DNA of 64,000 nt from Candidatus Tectimicrobiota bacterium. Lineage in GTDB: Bacteria; JACPUC01. Positions 29,263 through 52,093 of the stretch are shown piece after piece. The position numbers and the translations under genes are program-made. Within the stretch, counting starts at the first letter, position 1. Each line of letters begins with the position of its first letter. The notes beneath the pieces were generated by a model. It did not search any database and was not told the DNA's origin. It was given only the letters and a program-made list of their open reading frames with translations. The stretch is taken from assembly GCA_016192455.1 (NCBI GenBank), contig JACPUC010000003.1, positions 186,001 to 250,000 on the forward strand, read 5' to 3'.

Positions 29263-29339
29263 CACGAACGTCCCTTCCTGCTCCTCGGCCTCGGAGGCTG
29301 GTCAGATGGCAGGCTGGCGCGCGAGGGGGCACCTGGGTC

Positions 29340-29367
29340 GTAGGGGCGGTTCGCGAACCGCCCCTAA
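29340..29367. repeat. Copy of the 28-base palindrome
   Basis: Intact arms with one base changed at the right end (CCCCTAAC). Flanked by GCGCGAGGGGGCA on both sides (29319 and 29375), two arms of the composite repeat in direct orientation. Confidence 0.85.
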
Positions 29368-29437: not shown

Positions 29438-30319
29438 CTACTCGCCGATGATGTTGCCGTTGGCGTCGTACTCGAAGAAGCCCTTGCCGCTCTTGCGGCC
29501 CAGGCGACCCGCCGCCACGTACGTGCGGTGGATCGGCGTGGGGCGGTAGCGCTCGCCGAGGTGCTGGTGCATGAACTCGAGGGCGTTGAGGCGGGTGTCG
29601 AGGCCCACCAGATCGACCAGCTCGAACGGCCCCATGGGGAAGTTGAGCCCCAGCCGCACCGCCTTGTCGATGTCGCGCGCCGACGCCACCCCCTCCTCCA
29701 GCATGCGGAACGCCTCGTTGCCGATGGCGGCGTTGATGCGCGAGGTGATGAAGCCCGCCTTGTCGTTCACCGCCACGGTCTCCTTGCCCATGCGCCGGGA
29801 GACCTCCTCGGCGAGGCGCAGGCTCTCGTCGCTGGTCTCCAGGCCCCTGACGATCTCGATCAGGCGCATGATGTGCGGCGGGTTGAAGAAGTGCATGCCG
29901 ATGACCTGCGCCGGACGCTTCGTGGCGGCGGCGATGGCGGTGATGCTGAGGGCCGAGGTGTTGGTGGCGAGCAGCGTGCGCGGCGGGCAGAGCTCGTCGA
30001 GCCGCGCGAAGAGGGCGCGCTTCAGCTCCAGGTTCTCGGTGACGGCTTCGATGACGACGTCGGCGTCCCCCACCGCCTCGCGCAGGTCGGTCGTGTAGCT
30101 GAGGTTGCCCAAGGCGCGCCGCATGTCCGCCTCTTCGTACTTGCCGCGCTCGATCCCCTTGCGCAGGTTCGCCTCGATGGTCTTGCGCGCCTTCGCCAGC
30201 GCCTCGGACGAGATGTCCTGCAGGCGCGTCGCGTAGCCGCCGAAGGCGCCGATCTGGGCGATGCCGTTCCCCATGATGCCGGAGCCGATCACCGCCAGGC
30301 GCGTCATCTCCTTCGCCAT
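29438..30319 (-). CDS. hbd: 3-hydroxyacyl-CoA dehydrogenase (3-hydroxybutyryl-CoA type)
   Basis: 293 residues, the usual length. LAVIGSGIMGNGIAQIGAFGGY is the NAD-binding motif. The catalytic dyad is seen as His in GMHFFNPP and Glu in EIVRGLETSD; Asn is in TSRINAAIGNEA. The C-terminal domain ends with GRKSGKGFFEY. It oxidises (S)-3-hydroxybutyryl-CoA or reduces acetoacetyl-CoA. No other beta-oxidation gene is adjacent; it fits with the CoA-ester enzymes elsewhere in the window. Confidence 0.9.
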   Translation of the reverse strand: MAKEMTRLAVIGSGIMGNGIAQIGAFGGYATRLQDISSEALAKARKTIEANLRKGIERGKYEEADMRRALGNLSYTTDLREAVGDADVVIEAVTENLELKRALFARLDELCPPRTLLATNTSALSITAIAAATKRPAQVIGMHFFNPPHIMRLIEIVRGLETSDESLRLAEEVSRRMGKETVAVNDKAGFITSRINAAIGNEAFRMLEEGVASARDIDKAVRLGLNFPMGPFELVDLVGLDTRLNALEFMHQHLGERYRPTPIHRTYVAAGRLGRKSGKGFFEYDANGNIIGE

Positions 30320-30813
30320 CGTCTCTCTCCCTCATCCACCCCGCTGCTTCATCCTCGCAGACAGCGGCCCAGCATATCCGCCGTGCTGTCCCTCTCCCGG
30401 CGCCGCGTCGCGCTTGGCTTGAACCCTCGAAGATGATCACGATAGCAGGAGAGACCGGCAGGGGCAAGCGCCTCCCCGGCGCGGCGGCGAAGGCGCGAAA
30501 GCGTTTCCGAGGCAGTTCCCCATAGGCACGCCGCCTGCCCGCGAAGGGATGAACATGAGGTAGGCTCGGCGGGATTGTCCCCCGACGACGCGAGCCGTTC
30601 CTTGGTCCGCGACGGTCTGTAAAGGTGAAGCGCCGTGGATGGCCGGCCGTTGTAAGGGCGGTTCGCGAACCGCCCCTACGCCTGACCTGGTATCTCACAC
30701 GTACGCGGAGGGTCGAGCCTCGTGGGGCAGGGCTTGCCCTGCGCGCCTGTACCTCCCCTCAGGCATGCGGGATCGAGCCGGCGCGGCAGAAGGGCGGCAG
30801 TATGGCTCGGGGA
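30320..30813. other. Intergenic region upstream of the dehydrogenase
   Basis: The only recognised element is a palindrome copy at 30653-30680, whose left arm is GTAAGGGCGG (one base changed). The stretch 30421-30460 has GATGATCACGATAGC, a mixed AT patch with no strong promoter. No gene. Confidence 0.5.
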
Positions 30814-31131
30814 TCACTCAGCGTCGCTCGTCGCGTCGCCGCCGCCCGGCGGCGTCCGCGCCCGCCACTGCTCCCGGCACTCGCTGATAACCTCGGCGGG
30901 GATCATCTTCACCGCCAGGTAGACCAGGAGCGGCACGATCACCGCGTCATCGAGATGCCCAATGATCGGGATAAAGTCCGGAATGATGTCGAACGGCAGC
31001 AGCAGGTAGCCCACCGCCAGCCCCAACAGCCACTTCGCCCGCCGCGGCGTGCGCGGGTGCCGCAGCACAAGCCGGTAGACGCCAAGCTCGGTCTTCAGGC
31101 CGCGGGCGAGAGATTGGAGGTGGGGGAGCAT
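30814..31131 (-). CDS. YkvA/DUF1232 small membrane protein
   Basis: 105 residues. AVGYLLLPFDIIPDFIPIIGHLDDAVIVPLLVYLAVKM is the DUF1232 signature (PxDxIPDxIPxxGxxDD), two short membrane or reentrant segments joined by the conserved DDA. YkvA-family proteins are widespread and of unknown activity. ATG at 31131 lacks a strong ribosome site. The tail (TPPGGGDATSDAE) is polar. It diverges from the SEFIR gene downstream of it by a repeat-bearing gap. Confidence 0.85.
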   Translation of the reverse strand: MLPHLQSLARGLKTELGVYRLVLRHPRTPRRAKWLLGLAVGYLLLPFDIIPDFIPIIGHLDDAVIVPLLVYLAVKMIPAEVISECREQWRARTPPGGGDATSDAE

Positions 31132-31184
31132 GGGGGGGTGGTCTTTGCTGGGGGCGAGGGGGAAGCGAATTTGATAAGCGAAGT

Positions 31185-31270
31185 TCTTGTGGGGGACCCT
31201 TGCTCCCCCCCACCCCCATTCCGCGCGAGCTGCTCAGCAGCTCGCGTAGGGGGGGTGCGCCATGGCCAAG
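31185..31270. repeat. Composite repeat copy A4, partial, left of the SEFIR islet
   Basis: GTGGGGGACCCTTGCTCCCC module, then a second-class internal hairpin with arms CGCGAGCTGCT and AGCAGCTCGCG around a single base (31218-31240), then GGGGTGCGC. It does not contain the GTAGGGGCGG palindrome. The left and right termini are missing. Confidence 0.8.
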
Positions 31271-31395
31271 ATTTCGCTTAGGTCTTGCATTCCTCAATAT
31301 AGGCCCTATCACTTTGGAGTAGGAGCACGCATGACCTTCGTGGGGTGACCACGTAGCCGCGTCCTGCACCACGTCTTGTTGGCCTGTCAGGCTAC

Positions 31396-31424
31396 TTGAC
31401 GAGGCGTATCTGGAGGATTATGCT
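31396..31424 (+). promoter_or_regulatory. Promoter of the SEFIR gene
   Basis: TTGACG at 31396-31401, exactly 17 bases, then TATGCT at 31419-31424. The coding region begins 43 bases downstream. GC content falls sharply at about this point. Confidence 0.55.
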
Positions 31425-31466
31425 AAATAGACTACTTATTTCTCTGCTCAAAGGTAAACATGACAA

Positions 31467-32897
31467 ATGACGGCGCCAAAGTTGTTCATATCATATAGTT
31501 GGTCAAGTCCGGACCACGAACAATGGGTCGCGGATTTCGCTACCGAGTTGCGTGAATCTGGCGTTGATGTGATCCTAGATAAGTGGGATTTGAGAGAAGG
31601 CCATGATGCTATCGCATTTATGGAGAAGATGGTTACAGACCCAGAGGTTAAGAAAGTCGTGATTGTTTCTGATCGCATCTACGCGGCGAAAGCTGATGGC
31701 AGGGCAGGTGGAGTTGGAAAAGAGACGCAAATAATTTCCAAAGAGGTGTATGAAAAACAAACGCAGGATAAATTTGTTGCGGTTGTTCGAGAAAAAGACG
31801 AAGAAGGCAAGCCTTATCTTCCAACCTATTATAAGTCAAGAATCCATATCGATCTGAGTGAGCCAGAAACATATGGCGCGAACTTCGAAAGGCTTCTGAG
31901 GTGGGCCTTCGATAAGCCACTTTATGTTAAACCTGAACTTGGCAACAAGCCCTCTTTCCTGGAAGAGGGTGAGCATGTGTCTCTCGGTACAACAGTAAGC
32001 TTTAGAAGAGCTATTGATGCCATAAAAAATAACAAGACTTACGCAGCAGGTGCATTAGACGAATATCTAAATACCTTTGTTCGCAACCTTGAACGATTTA
32101 GGCTTGAGAAGCCCATCGGAGAGTTCGATGATGCCGTGGTTAAGAATATCGAAGAATTCCTGCCTTTCCGCAATGAAGCCATTCAACTCTTTATTACAAT
32201 TAGTCAGTACTCTCAAGGCGGTGCATTCCTGTGGAGCATTCACCGATTCTTCGAGAACCTAATTCCATATATGGACAGGCCTCCCCATATTTCTACATGG
32301 CGCGATGAGGATTACGATAACTTCAGATTCATTGTTCACGAGTTGTTCTTATACACCTTGGGGATTTTAATCAAATTCGAATGTTTCGAACAAGCCAGAT
32401 ATATGCTGGAACAACGATATTACTTCCCCGGAAATTCTGAGTCTGGCCGGGACTCAATGGTTAAGTATTTGATTTTCCACCAACGCACGTCATCTCTCAC
32501 ACACCGCAGCAAGCGTCTCAATCGCCTTTCTGTTCGAGCTGATCTTTTGAATGAGCGTTGCACAGGGGTAGGTATCGAGTTCTTGCATCTCATGCAAGCT
32601 GACTTTGTAATATTTATGCGAGCGGAAATAGAATCTACGGATGATTACCCCCGGTGGTGGCCGGAGACTTTGTTATATATTCGTTACTCCCGTAGGCCAT
32701 TCGAAATATTTGCACGTTCGATATCGAAAAGCTATTTCGAGTTAGTTAAAGGACTTTTAGGAATTACATCTCCTACTGACCTGCAGCCATTGCTTACTAG
32801 TTATAGTGAAAGAAGGAGGCAGTTACCCAGGTGGGATTTCGACTCAATCAATCCTGGGGTACTACTGGGATCCGATAAATTGGCTTCAAAGTCATAA
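31467..32897 (+). CDS. SEFIR-domain protein, defence candidate
   Basis: 476 residues, AT-rich. Residues 4-140 are a SEFIR (TIR-like) domain: PKLFISYSWSSPDHEQWVADFATELRESG (box 1 and helix A), VILDKWDLREGHD (box 2 with Trp-Asp), VVIVSDRIYAAKADGRAGGVGKE (Ala-Asp-Gly-Arg/Gly-Val-Gly segment). The remaining ~330 residues are a helical region without recognised family (YLNTFVRNLERF, FLWSIHRFF, RWWPETLLY). SEFIR and TIR proteins act in antiphage NAD-depleting or signalling systems. ATG at 31467 is preceded by AAAGG; an overlapping start at 31460 is out of frame. No membrane segment. Confidence 0.85.
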   Translation: MTAPKLFISYSWSSPDHEQWVADFATELRESGVDVILDKWDLREGHDAIAFMEKMVTDPEVKKVVIVSDRIYAAKADGRAGGVGKETQIISKEVYEKQTQDKFVAVVREKDEEGKPYLPTYYKSRIHIDLSEPETYGANFERLLRWAFDKPLYVKPELGNKPSFLEEGEHVSLGTTVSFRRAIDAIKNNKTYAAGALDEYLNTFVRNLERFRLEKPIGEFDDAVVKNIEEFLPFRNEAIQLFITISQYSQGGAFLWSIHRFFENLIPYMDRPPHISTWRDEDYDNFRFIVHELFLYTLGILIKFECFEQARYMLEQRYYFPGNSESGRDSMVKYLIFHQRTSSLTHRSKRLNRLSVRADLLNERCTGVGIEFLHLMQADFVIFMRAEIESTDDYPRWWPETLLYIRYSRRPFEIFARSISKSYFELVKGLLGITSPTDLQPLLTSYSERRRQLPRWDFDSINPGVLLGSDKLASKS

Positions 32898-32920
32898 CTC
32901 GCGATCGGGGTTTGGTAAAG

Positions 32921-33022
32921 ATGTTACTTCAAAAAGACAGACGTGAGATTCGGCAGATCATTTGTGAGCATTTCCAGTATATCGAGCAACAATGGGATGA
33001 TTTTCAAAAGAGGCGCCACTAA
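32921..33022 (+). CDS. 33-residue protein of the SEFIR islet
   Basis: ATG at 32921, 23 bases after the SEFIR stop; its TAA shares one base with the next ATG (TAATG), so it is translated in the operon. The peptide is a single charged helix, LLQKDRREIRQIICEH then YIEQQWDDFQKRRH. This resembles the last helix of DUF4160 proteins, which are commonly paired with DUF2442 proteins, so it may be a trimmed DUF4160 partner. Too short for most annotation pipelines. Confidence 0.55.
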   Translation: MLLQKDRREIRQIICEHFQYIEQQWDDFQKRRH

Positions 33023-33279
33023 TGCCACGCCACCACGAGATAGCAGACCTGTATTTTGAAGGCGAGTTGATGGTCATGACCATTGACGGAGAAGTGAGAC
33101 GGTTCCCTCTCCACGAGGTATCGCCCGCTCTCGCGAAAGCCACGGAAAGAGAGCGAAACACGTTTGCAATCTCCCCATCGGGATATGGAATCCATTGGCC
33201 CTTGCTTGATGAAGATGTGTCCGTCGATGGTTTGCTGGGAGTCATTCATTCTCCTGACGTTCAACACAAGACCTCCTGA
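33022..33279 (+). CDS. DUF2442-family protein
   Basis: 85 residues. DLYFEGELMVMTIDGEVRRFPL and PSGYGIHWPLLDEDVSVDGLLGV are characteristic of DUF2442, a small beta-rich protein found in toxin-antitoxin-like pairs. Overlaps the preceding 33-residue gene by one base. It is the last gene of the AT-rich islet; GC rises again right after its stop. Confidence 0.8.
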   Translation: MPRHHEIADLYFEGELMVMTIDGEVRRFPLHEVSPALAKATERERNTFAISPSGYGIHWPLLDEDVSVDGLLGVIHSPDVQHKTS

Positions 33280-33356
33280 CACCTCTCTCCCACCGCGACA
33301 CGCTAACCCGCGCCCCTGGCTTCACCCCCCCTTGTCATTTCCCCCCGCTGGTGCTA

Positions 33357-33530
33357 GTGTCACGTATCAGAAGCTCTATCACCAATTCGGCGCCATTCTC
33401 ATTCATATGAAGGGGGGATTTTTTTGTGTGGGACCCTTGCTTCCCCACACCCCCAGCTCCCGCGAGCTGCGCGGCAGCTCGCGACGTCGGGGTGCGCGAG
33501 GGGGCACTGCTCCCTCGCAGAATTATTAGA
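33357..33530. repeat. Composite repeat copy A5, right of the SEFIR islet
   Basis: Opens CTAGTGTCACGTATCAGAAG, the family's left end, followed by diverged left module, GTGTGGGACCCTTGCTTCCCC, a second-class hairpin (CGCGAGCTGC / GCAGCTCGCG, loop of 3, at 33468-33490) and GCGAGGGGGCACTGCTCCCTCGC. The right terminus is not recognised; the AEC gene begins at once. Confidence 0.85.
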
Positions 33531-33538
33531 ACCCGACG

Positions 33539-34435
33539 TTGCGCGAGGATCGACCCATTCTCGGACCCATCGTCGCCACGGTCTTTCCGGTCTACTTTGT
33601 CGCCGCGCTTGGTTTTGTGTATGGGCGGCTGCGTCCCATCCGCACCGATCTTCTCGCCGACCTCATCGTCTACATCAGCTCGCCCTGCCTGGCCTTCGTG
33701 TTTCTCACCCAGCGCCCCATTCGCCTGGAGGAGGTGAGCATCGTCGTCGGCTCGGGGCTGGCCGTCACCCTCTGCGTCGGCGCGCTGGCCCTGCCGATCC
33801 TGCGGCTGCTGAAGGCGCCCAGCACGGTCTTTTTGCCGCCGGTGATGTTCATGAACGCCGGCAACATGGGCATGCCGTTCGCCCTCTACGCTTTCGGCGA
33901 GGCGGGGCTGTCGCGCCAGGTGCTCCTCTTCGTGCTGGGGAGTTTCCTGCACAGCTCCCTCGGCGTCTACCTGGTGAGCCGCAAGCAGGGGACGTGGGAG
34001 TTCCTGCGCCTGCCGATCGTCTATGCCACGTTCCTGGGAGTCGCCGTCAACTTCCTCGGCTGGCGTCCGCCGGCGACGCTCATGCGGCCGCTGGAGCTCC
34101 TCGGCGGCATCACCATCCCGCTGATGATCCTCACCCTGGGGCTGAAACTCTCGACCGTCCGTCTGCGCGCGGTGAAGCTGCCGCTCCTCGCCGCCTCCCT
34201 GCGCCTGGGGCTCGGCTTCCTGGTGGGGGTGGTCCTCTTCTTCCTGCTGGGTCCCGAACGGCTGGAAAGCAAGGTCATCCTCCTCTACTCCGTCCTGCCG
34301 CCGGCGGTGGCGAACTTCATCTACGCCGAGAAGTTCAGGCAGAACGCCGACCAGGTGGCCGCCACGATCATGCTCGGCACGCTCATCAGCATGCTCACCT
34401 CGCCCCTCGTGCTCTACCTCGCCTACCGGTTCTGA
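33539..34435 (+). CDS. AEC-family (auxin efflux carrier) permease
   Basis: 298 residues, about ten membrane helices in the AEC arrangement. PVYFVAALGFVYGRLRP opens the first helix; AGNMGMPFALYAFGEAGL is the Asn-Met-Gly helix break characteristic of the family, and LPPAVANFIYAEKF the second crossover loop. AEC proteins export organic acids, malate or auxin-like acids. Start TTG 33539 is uncertain: no ribosome site, and it is immediately after a composite repeat, which may have replaced the native leader. Followed by a CoxL-like gene in the same direction after 304 bases. Confidence 0.78.
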   Translation: MREDRPILGPIVATVFPVYFVAALGFVYGRLRPIRTDLLADLIVYISSPCLAFVFLTQRPIRLEEVSIVVGSGLAVTLCVGALALPILRLLKAPSTVFLPPVMFMNAGNMGMPFALYAFGEAGLSRQVLLFVLGSFLHSSLGVYLVSRKQGTWEFLRLPIVYATFLGVAVNFLGWRPPATLMRPLELLGGITIPLMILTLGLKLSTVRLRAVKLPLLAASLRLGLGFLVGVVLFFLLGPERLESKVILLYSVLPPAVANFIYAEKFRQNADQVAATIMLGTLISMLTSPLVLYLAYRF

Positions 34436-34739
34436 GGCGCCGCCGCAAGCGCCGCCGCGCCGCCGCGTTGGCCGCGAGCCGCCGACCCGGCGCCGCGCCC
34501 TGGCGCGACAGATAGTTCACATATTGACAATCTCCGTGGAGCGCGCTAAGCTGAGGCCATATCGAGGCCATGGGCGTGGCGGAGCGTCGTCGGTCGGCCC
34601 GCGGCAGCGTTGTTCGGTAGGCGGCCGCCGCGCCACGGCATGAAACCGAGAGCCCCCTGCCCGCGGCCGTCTTCCTGCCCATGGGAAGCCTCTCTGCTTG
34701 CGCCTCCAGCGCCCCTGCACCTGCCCGGGAGATCGAGCC
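34436..34739. other. Leader interval of the second CoxL-like gene
   Basis: Contains the promoter at 34524-34552. From 34560 to 34720 GC-rich sequence with no supported gene; short leftward frames are shadows. Confidence 0.4.
34524..34552 (+). promoter_or_regulatory. Promoter of the CoxL-like gene at 34740
   Basis: A perfect TTGACA at 34524-34529, 17 bases, then TAAGCT at 34547-34552 (three of six). It is 188 bases before the start codon, leaving a long leader. Confidence 0.45.
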
Positions 34740-37172
34740 ATGTCACACGCCTCCCAGAACTGGGTTGGGAAACCAGTTCACCGCAAGGAAGACCCGCGCC
34801 TGTTGACCGGCAAGGGGACCTACGTCGATGACCTGCCGATCAGCCACCTCTGCCATGCCGCCATTCTGCGTTCGCCCTACCCGCACGCCCGCATCCGCGG
34901 CATCGACACGAGCGCCGCGGAGGCCATGCCGGGGGTGGTCGCGGTGCTGACCGGCGAGGATGTGAAGCGCATGGCCCGGCCCTTCCCCCTGGGCGTGGCG
35001 GCGCCGGTGAAGTACTACTGCATGGCGGTGGACAAGGCGCGCTTCGTGGGCGAAGCGGTGGCGCTGGTGGTGGCGCGCAGCCGCTACGCGGCGGAGGACG
35101 CTTGCGACGCCCTGGTGGTGGACTACGAACCGCTGCCGCCGGTGGTGGACATCGAGAAGGCCATGGCCGACGACGCGCCGATTCTGCACGAGAGCGTCGG
35201 CAGCAACGTGGCGAATCACCGCGTCCTGAACTACGGCGACATCGAGCAGGCCTTCGCCGAGGCGGACCTCGTCGTGCGCGAGAAGTTCGTCTTCCCGAAG
35301 TACAGCTCGACGCCGATGGAGACCTACGCCGTCATCGCCAAGTACCAGCCGGCGGAGAACCTTTACACCATTTGGTCGAACTTCCAGGGGCCGTTCATCA
35401 TGCACCCGGTGGTCTCCATGACCCTCGGCGTGCCGGAGACCAACCTGCGCTTCCTGGTGCCGTCGGACGTGGGCGGCGGCTTCGGCATCAAGTCGAGCAT
35501 CTACCCGTACCTCACCCTGCTGGCCTTGGCGGCGCGCAAATCCGGCGAGACGGTGAAGTGGATCGAGGATCGGCGCGAGCACCTGCTGGCCAGTTCCAGC
35601 GGCACCGACCGCGTCTCCTACCTCGAGGCGGCGGTGAAGAAGGACGGCACCATCCTGGGCCTGAAGACGAAGATCATGGACAACGTCGGCGGCTACCTGC
35701 GCACCCCCGAGCCGGCCTGCCTCTACAGCCGCACCGGCAGCTCCGTCGGCGCCTACAAGTTCCAGAACCTGCGGATCGACGCCTACGCCGTGATGACCAA
35801 CAAGTGCCCCACCGGCCCGAACCGCGGCTATGGCTGCCAGCAGCTCTACTTCAGCATGGAGCGCATGGTCGATCTCGTGGCGCGCGAGCTTGACATGGAC
35901 CCCGCCGCCATCCGCATGAAGAACTTCATCCAGCCGGAGGATTTCCCCTACACCACGCCGGCCGGCGGCGTCTACGACAGCGGCGACTACCCGGCGGTGC
36001 TGCGGAAGGCGCTGGACAGCGCCGACTACAAGGGGCTGCGCGAGCAGCAGGCGAAGGCGCGCGCCGCCGGCAAGCTGTTCGGCATCGGCATCGCCTGCGC
36101 GGTGGACCCCTCGGTCACCAACATCGCCTACATCACCGTCGCCTGGACCCCGGAGGAGCGCGCCGCGAAGAACTACCACGCCAAGTCCGGCTCCGGCGAG
36201 ACGGCGGTGGTGAAGATTGATCCCCTCGGCAACGTGACGGCCATCGCCAACACGGTGCCGGAAGGCCAGGGGCACGAGACGATCATCGCGCAGATCGTCG
36301 CCGATGAGCTGGGCCTCACCCCGGAAGACGTGCACGTCGTTACCGAGATGGACACCTTCACCCGCTTGTGGAGCATCACCACCGGCAGCTACTCCAGCCG
36401 ATTTGCGTCGGTGGGTTCGAGCGCCTTCGTCATGGCGGCGCGCAACCTGCGCCGCAAGATCATCAAGATCGGCGCGCACCTCCTGGAAGTCTCGGAGGAT
36501 GATGTCTACCTCGAGGAGGGCAAGGTGAAGGTGCGCGGCGCGCCGCAGCGCTCCGCCGAGCTGCGGCACATCGCCGGCACGGCCCACTGGAACCTCGCCT
36601 CCCTGCCGCCGGGCACCATGCCCGGCCTGCTGGAGACCTACGTCTACAACTTCCCCACCGCCGTGCCGCCGGACGAGAAGGATCGCATCGACTCGCAGCA
36701 GACCTACGGCTTCATCGCCGAAGTCCTCGCCGTGGAGATCGACCCGCAAACCGGCGAGATCGAGCTGAAGACTTACGTCTCGTCCCACGACGCCGGCAAC
36801 CTCCTCAACCCCCTCATCGTCGACGGGCAGGTATGGGGCGCCCAGGTTCACGGCGTCGCCGGGGCGCTCTACGAAGAGCTGGCCTACGGCGAGGACGGGC
36901 AGATGCTGGCGGCGACCTTCATGGACTACCTCTGCCCCACCGCCATGGAGCAGCCGCGCGTGAAGTTCGAGCACACCGAGACGCCCTCGCCCTTCTCGGT
37001 CCTCGGCTCGAAAGGGCTGGGCGAGAGCAGCACGATGGTGGCCCCGGCAACCATCGCCAACGCCGTGGACGACGCCCTGCAGCCGCTCGGCATCAGCATC
37101 ACCCAACTGCCCCTGCCGCCGACCCGCGTTTGGGAGCTGCTGCGGCGCGCCAAGTCAGCCTCGAGCGCGTAG
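34740..37172 (+). CDS. CoxL/XdhA-like molybdopterin-binding large subunit (second)
   Basis: 810 residues from an ATG at 34740 with GGGAGA upstream; the frame extends to 34698 but that part is not conserved. N-terminal hammerhead begins KEDPRLLTGKGTYVDDL. Mo-cofactor loops: DVGGGFGIKSS and GPNRGYGCQQ (the catalytic loop, again lacking the AYRCSFR of CO dehydrogenase). The catalytic Glu is in GLGESSTMVAPATIANAV. Form II-like relatives oxidise aldehydes, hypoxanthine or unsaturated acids. No CoxM or CoxS gene beside it. Divergent from the other two such proteins here, so not a local duplication. Confidence 0.85.
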   Translation: MSHASQNWVGKPVHRKEDPRLLTGKGTYVDDLPISHLCHAAILRSPYPHARIRGIDTSAAEAMPGVVAVLTGEDVKRMARPFPLGVAAPVKYYCMAVDKARFVGEAVALVVARSRYAAEDACDALVVDYEPLPPVVDIEKAMADDAPILHESVGSNVANHRVLNYGDIEQAFAEADLVVREKFVFPKYSSTPMETYAVIAKYQPAENLYTIWSNFQGPFIMHPVVSMTLGVPETNLRFLVPSDVGGGFGIKSSIYPYLTLLALAARKSGETVKWIEDRREHLLASSSGTDRVSYLEAAVKKDGTILGLKTKIMDNVGGYLRTPEPACLYSRTGSSVGAYKFQNLRIDAYAVMTNKCPTGPNRGYGCQQLYFSMERMVDLVARELDMDPAAIRMKNFIQPEDFPYTTPAGGVYDSGDYPAVLRKALDSADYKGLREQQAKARAAGKLFGIGIACAVDPSVTNIAYITVAWTPEERAAKNYHAKSGSGETAVVKIDPLGNVTAIANTVPEGQGHETIIAQIVADELGLTPEDVHVVTEMDTFTRLWSITTGSYSSRFASVGSSAFVMAARNLRRKIIKIGAHLLEVSEDDVYLEEGKVKVRGAPQRSAELRHIAGTAHWNLASLPPGTMPGLLETYVYNFPTAVPPDEKDRIDSQQTYGFIAEVLAVEIDPQTGEIELKTYVSSHDAGNLLNPLIVDGQVWGAQVHGVAGALYEELAYGEDGQMLAATFMDYLCPTAMEQPRVKFEHTETPSPFSVLGSKGLGESSTMVAPATIANAVDDALQPLGISITQLPLPPTRVWELLRRAKSASSA

Positions 37173-43675: not shown

Positions 43676-44464
43676 TTATCTTTTTGCCTCTTCAACTCGG
43701 TTCGCCAGTAAGCTTAGCAGTGCGATATATTCCCGAGCTCGACCTGCTGAGTCAACCTGAACGGCATGCGCTCTGGGGTTACGGACTGCGAGCACTGCTC
43801 CCAAAAAGAGATACATTGTACCTTCCTGCTCATCTTGGTCAGTCTTATTATTGAGACCGTTAAGAGCTAAAATTGGGTTTTTTGCCGAAAACACAGTGCG
43901 CATCAGATCGGCTCCATCAAGGTCATCTCTTCCTGATTTCTCCTTAACAAGAGTTATTAAAGCTACACAGCCATCAAATACCGCATTAGAGTAATGCTCA
44001 TCTTCGTAGAGCTTTGAACAAGCTTGAGCAATACGCGGATGGAGAACAAGTGTCTCGGACAAAGAGCCAGAAAGTATACTATTGCCCTTTAGAAGATCTC
44101 CCTGTTTTTCTTCCAAGCGAGCGATGAGACCCTCCAACATTTCTACAGTTCTCGGGATTCCTATCTCAAAGTTTCGCTGGTGGCGACTTTCAGTCATGCC
44201 TATGTATACTCCGCCATACTCTATTTTATAATATTGATACTGAAGGAATTCTGGCGATGCTGTCCCAAATACCTCTCTGATTGCCTCTCGAATGTCGAAT
44301 TCGAGATTCGCGACTTTCACATCATCATGTCTTATATTCTGAAACTTCAGAGTTTTCACTTCATCAAGGCGACGACGTAATTTGGTAATACCGCTCTCAA
44401 TCTCTTTAGGTGTCAACATTTTGATCTCCACCCTGGGCCTCTCAGCTCGCATAGATTTTGCCAT
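43676..44464 (-). CDS. TIGR02391/Ymh-family HEPN protein, defence candidate
   Basis: 262 residues, AT-rich. The C-terminal 130 residues are the Ymh domain: LHPRIAQACSKLYEDEHYSNAVFDGCVALITLVKEKSG, then RNPRAH (residues 228-233), an RNxxxH HEPN nuclease motif, and a final helix YIALLSLLANRVEEAKR. The first 130 residues are helical with FQYYKIEYGG, unassigned. Ymh proteins occur in abortive-infection and toxin-like settings. ATG at 44464 has GGAG at a slightly long spacing. Stand-alone: no partner gene. Confidence 0.85.
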   Translation of the reverse strand: MAKSMRAERPRVEIKMLTPKEIESGITKLRRRLDEVKTLKFQNIRHDDVKVANLEFDIREAIREVFGTASPEFLQYQYYKIEYGGVYIGMTESRHQRNFEIGIPRTVEMLEGLIARLEEKQGDLLKGNSILSGSLSETLVLHPRIAQACSKLYEDEHYSNAVFDGCVALITLVKEKSGRDDLDGADLMRTVFSAKNPILALNGLNNKTDQDEQEGTMYLFLGAVLAVRNPRAHAVQVDSAGRAREYIALLSLLANRVEEAKR

Positions 44465-50447: not shown

Positions 50448-52073
50448 TCAAGAGGGTTCAGGCGGGATGAACTTGTTTCGCTGGCTTGATGGAAATCCAA
50501 GCGAACAAAAAAACGCATCCTCATAAACTGCCAATAAGGACCTCTCTATGCCAAACGAAGTAAGACATTTGAGATCGTTCAGAACTAATGCAACTGACTG
50601 GCAGCGCAGTTTGTCTAGCGTTGCAGAGAGTGAAATGCCGGCCGTAATATAAGGCTCTAGCATAGCAAGCTGTTCAAATGACATAATCTGCCAGTCAAAA
50701 TCAATCGCTGCACCATCGTTAAGTCTCCTCAACAGATGGCTTCTGAGCAGTTCGCAAGTATCACCCATCAATGTATCAAAGACAAGCGCAACAGTTGTAA
50801 CCCTTTGGACTTCGTGAAAATCTTCCAAGCCAGGCTGCCTCTCCATCACTGCGCGGCTGAAATCATTAAGTTGCCTCAGGGCCCCCATCACCTGCTCCAT
50901 ACTATTATCAATAGCCTCTTCACTGGCCGAAGTCATGGCATCCGCAAGCAGATACGTTGACTTGCACTCGATTAAAATAAGCGTTGAACCCTCCAGAATA
51001 GCAAAATCTGGGCATTTCCCACTACCGCTAGGATATGATCTACGAATTTCACCTTCTCGGAACAGTAGATACGTATCATCAAGGCGCTCCAGCATTACTT
51101 CAGTAGCAGCTTCAAACAAATGGCCGAAGTAGTTAGTGAAGGCAGTCTTAAACCTGTGCATCATCAAGTAGAATATGCCGGCCGTAAATGTATAGAATAC
51201 CAAGTTGGGTATGGGGGCAATGAGCCTCACGTTATCCGAGCTGCCAAAAAAGTTTTCTTCCCATGGCTTTATTAACGGACATACAAGTAAAGGGTTAAAA
51301 GAATACATTCGAAATCTGCGATCAGAAACTTGTTGATCTTCATAAATCCTTCGAAATTTCTCGCGATCTGCCGAAACAAGATCCATAATTTGATGGATGG
51401 CCTGATCGGTAACACGCCATTGTGACTCATCGCGAGATACTTTCACTAGGCCAAGAGCAAATCCATTCTCCGTTCGACATTGGCCGGAAATGAATAGCCC
51501 TATTTTTAAGAATTCTCTTAGACTTGTTCCTACAAGACTTTCAAATTGCTCTGCCAGATCAAAATGAGCGATATTTTCCTTCCGACTAAGTCGCTTGGGC
51601 GCTATTTCGTAAAAGAGCAATGCTTGTCCGAGCTTCAGAGTTGGAGAAATAAGAAAAGGAACCTGCTGGCATAATAATCGAAAGGGAAGGAACTCATGAT
51701 CGGAGTGATGATAATATTCCCTTACCCCTCCATCGAACGAGACCGGATCAGCTTGGAGGTACGCTACTATATGCTTGTAAGTATTTAGGAATTGGTCGTC
51801 AGAAATGCTATTCGCAACCCCAGAATATATTATCGGACTTGTATTTCTGATAACGAAAGATGCCAACCCTGCCAAGTAAGGAGGATAGAATATGGTATCC
51901 TCCCCAACCTCCTCGATGGCCAAGCATTTGTTATGAATCTTGAGCAGCCACTGATCGAGCTTGTAGCGAAGAACCTGAGACTGTAAGCGCGCTTCGAGAT
52001 CCGCCAAATCGCCTGCGGAATTCACGGGGAAGAAGCAAGGCAAAACCTTAAAGTTGCCGACATTGTGAGCCAT
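50448..52073 (-). CDS. PD-(D/E)XK-like protein of unknown family, defence candidate
   Basis: 541 residues, AT-rich. Near residues 357-374 it has CPDFAILEGSTLILIECKST: Asp, then Glu-x-Lys thirteen residues later, on two beta strands, the PD-(D/E)XK nuclease core. Upstream lies a long helical region (FYPPYLAGLASFVI, LPFRLLCQQVPFLI); downstream helices with MEQVMGALRQLNDFSRAVM. I know no named family. ATG at 52073 lies 20 bases after the alaC stop, so it may be read from the alaC message. A restriction-like or abortive nuclease is suggested, not proven. Confidence 0.6.
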   Translation of the reverse strand: MAHNVGNFKVLPCFFPVNSAGDLADLEARLQSQVLRYKLDQWLLKIHNKCLAIEEVGEDTIFYPPYLAGLASFVIRNTSPIIYSGVANSISDDQFLNTYKHIVAYLQADPVSFDGGVREYYHHSDHEFLPFRLLCQQVPFLISPTLKLGQALLFYEIAPKRLSRKENIAHFDLAEQFESLVGTSLREFLKIGLFISGQCRTENGFALGLVKVSRDESQWRVTDQAIHQIMDLVSADREKFRRIYEDQQVSDRRFRMYSFNPLLVCPLIKPWEENFFGSSDNVRLIAPIPNLVFYTFTAGIFYLMMHRFKTAFTNYFGHLFEAATEVMLERLDDTYLLFREGEIRRSYPSGSGKCPDFAILEGSTLILIECKSTYLLADAMTSASEEAIDNSMEQVMGALRQLNDFSRAVMERQPGLEDFHEVQRVTTVALVFDTLMGDTCELLRSHLLRRLNDGAAIDFDWQIMSFEQLAMLEPYITAGISLSATLDKLRCQSVALVLNDLKCLTSFGIERSLLAVYEDAFFCSLGFPSSQRNKFIPPEPS

Positions 52074-52093
52074 CACAAGTTTCTCTTAACGTT

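Follow-up and report, generated by a model that had tools for sequence, protein, structure and literature searches.

Three ORFs that lie close together on one strand of an AT-rich islet in a Candidatus Tectimicrobiota genome (G000) raise the question of whether neighboring genes constitute a defense system. We analyzed the islet within a 64,000-nucleotide stretch (C1:186001-250000; referred to here as the window), for which a first-pass annotation had proposed an undescribed three-gene SEFIR defense with a tiny middle gene. A defense gene is present, and it is of a described, single-gene kind (bSEFIR); the three-gene system did not hold up. The locus very likely represents a horizontally acquired, stand-alone bSEFIR antiphage gene that was put by recombination just 5′ of the separate remains of a dhiTA toxin-antitoxin pair. 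This reading guards against a chance juxtaposition being taken for a new defense system and places the "tiny gene" in a known toxin family.

Layout, composition, and flanking repeats of the islet

ORF, Pfam, and GC analyses confirmed the content previously noted for the islet: a SEFIR ORF of 476 aa (31467..32897), a 33-aa ORF (32921-33022), and an intact DUF2442 gene (33022..33279; 85 aa), all on the plus strand. The 33-aa ORF begins after a gap of 23 nt, and its stop codon is coupled to the DUF2442 start codon by TAATG at 33020-33024. Given the short gaps and the shared strand, cotranscription of the three ORFs is possible. The GC content of the islet was about 42 to 47%, compared with 67 to 70% in the flanks, and the GC3 values of its genes (0.44 to 0.56) were well below those of four neighboring host genes (0.89 to 0.98). 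Because overall and third-position GC are both far lower than in the surroundings, the islet is clearly of foreign origin. Further AT-rich islets of like composition are present in the 64-kb window.

The composite repeat copies reported on the two sides of the islet do exist, as copies of a GC-rich repeat at 31184-31265 (with a hairpin core) and 33421-33502 (both on the plus strand; 80% identical), but they belong to a dispersed family. The unit (about 77 to 82 nt, with the inverted-repeat core CGAGCTGC..GCAGCTCG) occurs in at least 40 copies in the genome (43 matches when 40 of the 118 candidates were scored, hence a lower bound), and other close pairs are found at C15:11062/11249, C3:17642/17828, and C6:200245/201334. 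Because of this genome-wide distribution and these additional pairs, the repeats are not specific to the islet; they are background rather than a signature of its insertion, and we ruled them out as insertion boundaries.

The bSEFIR protein and its relatives

The 476-aa protein matched the PADLOC bSEFIR profile PDLC03957 (E value, 1.5e-119) over residues 1 to 475 (profile positions 35 to 385 of 412), as well as the Pfam families SEFIR (PF08357; 1.5e-16) and TIR_2 (PF13676; 9.7e-15). It comprises an N-terminal SEFIR/TIR-like domain (residues about 1 to 150) and an all-helical C-terminal domain (about 177 to 467); accordingly, the AlphaFold model (mean pLDDT, 77) consists of an alpha/beta N-terminal domain with an almost entirely helical remainder (177 to 467). 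The prokaryotic SEFIR domains 5y8e and 5y8f were the best matches of the N-terminal part in both sequence (HMMER) and fold (Foldseek; 5y8e, 4.1e-08). They share its fold at 40 to 41% identity over approximately 150 residues, but the crystallized chains, of 144 and 154 residues, do not include a helical C-terminal domain. In Foldseek and HMMER searches against the PDB, the helical part had no significant match, and the SEFIR domain alone was matched confidently.

Ten relatives were found on viral contigs; nine were full length at 54 to 64% identity, and one had 37% identity in the search (range given for all ten, 35 to 64%). Plasmids carry further full-length or nearly full-length relatives in Pseudomonas luteola (58%), Leptospira (40%), and Deinococcus (34%), with the P. 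luteola gene adjoining phage terminase and portal genes. Among about 800 sampled genomes, four contained relatives, and a search of the host's phylum returned G000 itself as the sole genome. When the relatives were aligned, many SEFIR residues and motifs were invariant, and conserved positions extended through the C terminus. Since the profile covers residues 1 to 475 and full-length relatives exist, the C terminus, which had been described as unassigned, is by this comparison the normal second half of bSEFIR and no orphan domain. The known family to which it belongs is thus a defense family. An additional relative, on Sinorhizobium medicae pSymA (L005; 3941-4869), is divided into two annotated ORFs and shortened beside IS elements, and is likely a degraded copy.

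The gene neighborhoods of the plasmid, viral, and genome relatives vary, consistent with a stand-alone gene. As with known bSEFIR, the protein studied here matches the profile over its full length, combines a SEFIR/TIR-like N terminus with a helical C terminus, and has relatives on phage or prophage contigs and plasmids; it differs from known bSEFIR only by the decayed toxin-antitoxin pair directly downstream. In the work of Millman et al. 2022, bSEFIR reportedly works as a single gene. We consider the gene in the islet to be an ordinary bSEFIR that is probably functional.

SEFIR systems deplete NAD+ and are abortive (PMC12774641, PMC12322248, PMC12926258), and major capsid proteins are sensed by SEFIR systems (PMC11364771, PMC10884400). 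From this published work on the family, we infer that the protein encoded here may likewise sense phage and hydrolyze NAD+. Once the C-terminal helical domain had recognized a structural protein of the phage, which in the studied bSEFIR is the major capsid protein, NAD+ would be hydrolyzed by the SEFIR domain and the cell would cease to support phage growth, which amounts to abortive infection.

The 33-aa ORF and the DUF2442 gene

DUF4160/DUF2442 proteins constitute the type II toxin-antitoxin pair DhiT/DhiA, and dhiTA was shown experimentally in Dickeya (PMC8198452). On Thermus plasmids, DUF4160/DUF2442 forms a persistence module ("PEM") in which ORF2 neutralizes ORF1 and deletion of ORF2 is not tolerated with ORF1 present (PMC12724237). 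The DUF2442 protein of the islet was identified by Pfam (PF10387; E value, 5.7e-16), had weak PDB matches (2x8n and 3k8r), and was 73% identical to the DUF2442 protein of an intact pair, L008. We collected 80 close relatives with 44 to 73% identity, most of which have a DUF4160 gene of approximately 84 aa immediately 5′, with a like stop/start overlap.

The 33-aa ORF corresponds to the 3′ end of such a toxin gene. A tblastn search aligned it with DUF4160 residues 56 to 83 (79% identity; E value, 5e-12), and it was 70% identical to the L008 toxin in the alignment. When the DNA sequences are compared, the homology of the window to the L008 pair sets in abruptly at 32932 and ends at approximately 33280, just past the DUF2442 stop codon. 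The remnant therefore spans 32932..33022 (plus strand; toxin residues about 55 to 84 and the stop codon). Four nonhomologous codons precede it in the ORF, and the junction that leads from the bSEFIR stop codon to the remnant (32898..32931) is unlike the 5′ part of the toxin gene. In all, the toxin gene is short of its first ~54 codons. In a model of DUF4160 (pLDDT, 92), for which a fold search of the PDB gave no significant match, five strands (residues 3 to 51) precede two helices (55 to 67 and 69 to 83); the remnant therefore retains the two C-terminal helices only, with the predicted beta-sheet core gone. It also has C at a position where all 31 of 31 intact toxins have F or Y. Sequence for the DUF4160 N terminus was not found within window positions 30001 to 35000, including the region upstream of bSEFIR.

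The first-pass annotation had treated this ORF as a gene of its own. Considered as an independent small protein, it gave only sub-threshold, coiled-coil-like Pfam matches, and the homology to the DUF4160 C terminus was decisive against that candidate. Judging from these alignments, the ORF is a 5′-truncated DUF4160 toxin pseudogene and not an independent gene. A Shine-Dalgarno sequence for DUF2442 (AAAGAGG-like, ATTTTCAAAAGAGGCGCCACTAATG; 33006..33012, plus strand) lies inside the remnant. The ORF does not appear to act as a protein partner; its contribution would at most be a ribosome-binding site (RBS) and the coupled stop/start for DUF2442.

The toxin-first order, the overlapping stop/start, and the intact DUF2442 gene are shared with DhiT-DhiA and the Thermus PEM, and the remnant and DUF2442 are homologous to intact pairs such as L008 in both protein and DNA. 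Unlike DhiT-DhiA, a complete DUF4160 gene is missing upstream: the toxin has been cut to its C-terminal two helices, and the two genes are no longer a working pair. Not far from the start of a contig (C16:463-922; L096), the genome also carries another DUF4160-DUF2442 pair, which is divergent and in which both genes are open. The good conservation of the remnant and of DUF2442 may indicate that the decay is recent or that DUF2442 is under selection.

Toxin loss was common at other DUF2442 loci. At the 78 loci with enough upstream sequence, the toxin was intact in 43, had a broken frame in 14, was partial in 13, and was not detectable in 8; it was therefore broken, truncated, or absent at 35 of 78 loci, although some of the broken frames may be metagenome assembly errors. 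By eye, L042 (one of the 14 broken-frame loci) appears truncated, and L024 retains only the N terminus. Independent 5′ truncations of the toxin, fused to unrelated DNA, were observed at L010, L027, L028, L030, L040, L042, L044, L055, L072, and L078; DUF2442 is retained at these loci, often with an RBS. Purine-rich tracts like the DUF2442 Shine-Dalgarno sequence are retained at several other toxin-less loci. A common breakpoint, a possible sign of a selected tail peptide, was sought and rejected: the breakpoints lie anywhere between about residues 24 and 80. Because of this scatter, and because the remnant often has no usable in-frame start (L010, L028, L044, and L055), what survives tends to be the DNA end with the antitoxin's purine-rich RBS rather than a peptide. 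DUF2442 antitoxin genes thus often outlast DUF4160 toxins, with an RBS-bearing toxin fragment remaining. This explains how "tiny genes" ahead of DUF2442 may come about, and it would offer a testable case of an orphan antitoxin that persists.

How the three ORFs came together

Within the flanks available, DUF4160 or DUF2442 was found near bSEFIR at none of 20 loci (6 plasmid, 10 viral, and 4 genome loci, the last four with no more than about 1.4 kb of flank on each side), and a SEFIR gene was found at none of the 80 DUF2442 loci. The gene order is thus not conserved in this set, in which the two small genes accompany the SEFIR protein only here, and the candidate of a new three-gene SEFIR system was rejected. 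In the sample searched, the juxtaposition of bSEFIR, remnant, and DUF2442 is a one-off recombination product. Recombination would have set bSEFIR upstream of a decayed dhiTA, of which the antitoxin gene survives.

A functional operon, in which bSEFIR acts as effector and is kept silent until infection by a regulator or antidote (the 33-aa peptide, DUF2442, or both), would account for the single strand, the short gaps, and the single AT-rich islet, and DUF2442 proteins are indeed antitoxins. These features have to be set against the zero counts above, the identity of the peptide as a truncated toxin tail, and the failure of that tail to be conserved as a translated product, as the start-less remnants at four other loci illustrate. 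Moreover, bSEFIR is said in the literature to be a single-gene system, and we regard such an operon as highly improbable. Even less credence is due to a lineage-unique hybrid immunity/antitoxin operon, in which the surviving DUF2442, with or without the two-helix tail, was recruited to control bSEFIR or to protect from it. An insertion of bSEFIR that split the toxin gene of a complete dhiTA would fit the position of the junction directly 3′ of bSEFIR; however, no trace of the toxin 5′ half was found upstream within positions 30001 to 35000. This rules out a clean insertion, barring a later deletion, and we consider this route unlikely. The sharp shift in composition could also suggest an assembly chimera in which unrelated AT-rich DNA was joined into a GC-rich contig, especially as the genome is by appearance a draft (31 contigs; 88% complete). 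The islet nevertheless lies in the interior of a long contig, and islets of similar composition occur elsewhere in the window, making a chimera exceedingly doubtful.

As for the orphan DUF2442, we infer that it is either decaying or retained as an anti-addiction antitoxin. Under the latter reading, DUF2442 would counter DhiT toxins of plasmids or phages, and the tail would have been kept for the antitoxin's RBS. The intact DUF2442 gene agrees with this, as do the many independent loci that have lost the toxin yet keep DUF2442, several of them with the purine-rich tract of the toxin 3′ end. In a sample of 390 genomes from one phylum, all eight close DUF4160 genes adjoin DUF2442, but a close toxin is missing for 5 of the 13 close DUF2442 genes, an asymmetry that fits the prediction for a toxin-antitoxin pair. 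The same asymmetry is also expected from passive decay, because cells die if the antitoxin is lost first, whereas losing the toxin is neutral. Anti-addiction is therefore a tentative reading with somewhat less than an even chance; it is compatible with, and not opposed to, the recombination origin preferred here.

Elsewhere in the window, three further features were observed. A 262-aa protein encoded on the minus strand in an AT-richer stretch (43676-44464) has a C-terminal Hypoth_Ymh domain (PF09509) and PADLOC matches to PD-Lambda-3_B and Aga_HEPN, making it a possible defense gene. A 542-aa protein, also on the minus strand (50448-52076), lies in an islet of 43 to 45% GC and is matchless in Pfam and PADLOC; by eye, its PDFAILEG...LILIECKS stretch recalls a PD-(D/E)XK nuclease motif. 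Finally, two copies (93% identical) of a 30-nt self-complementary repeat, AGGGGCGGTTCGCGAACCGCCCCT, at 29337-29366 and 30649-30678 flank a putative 3-hydroxyacyl-CoA dehydrogenase-type gene, named from its sequence.
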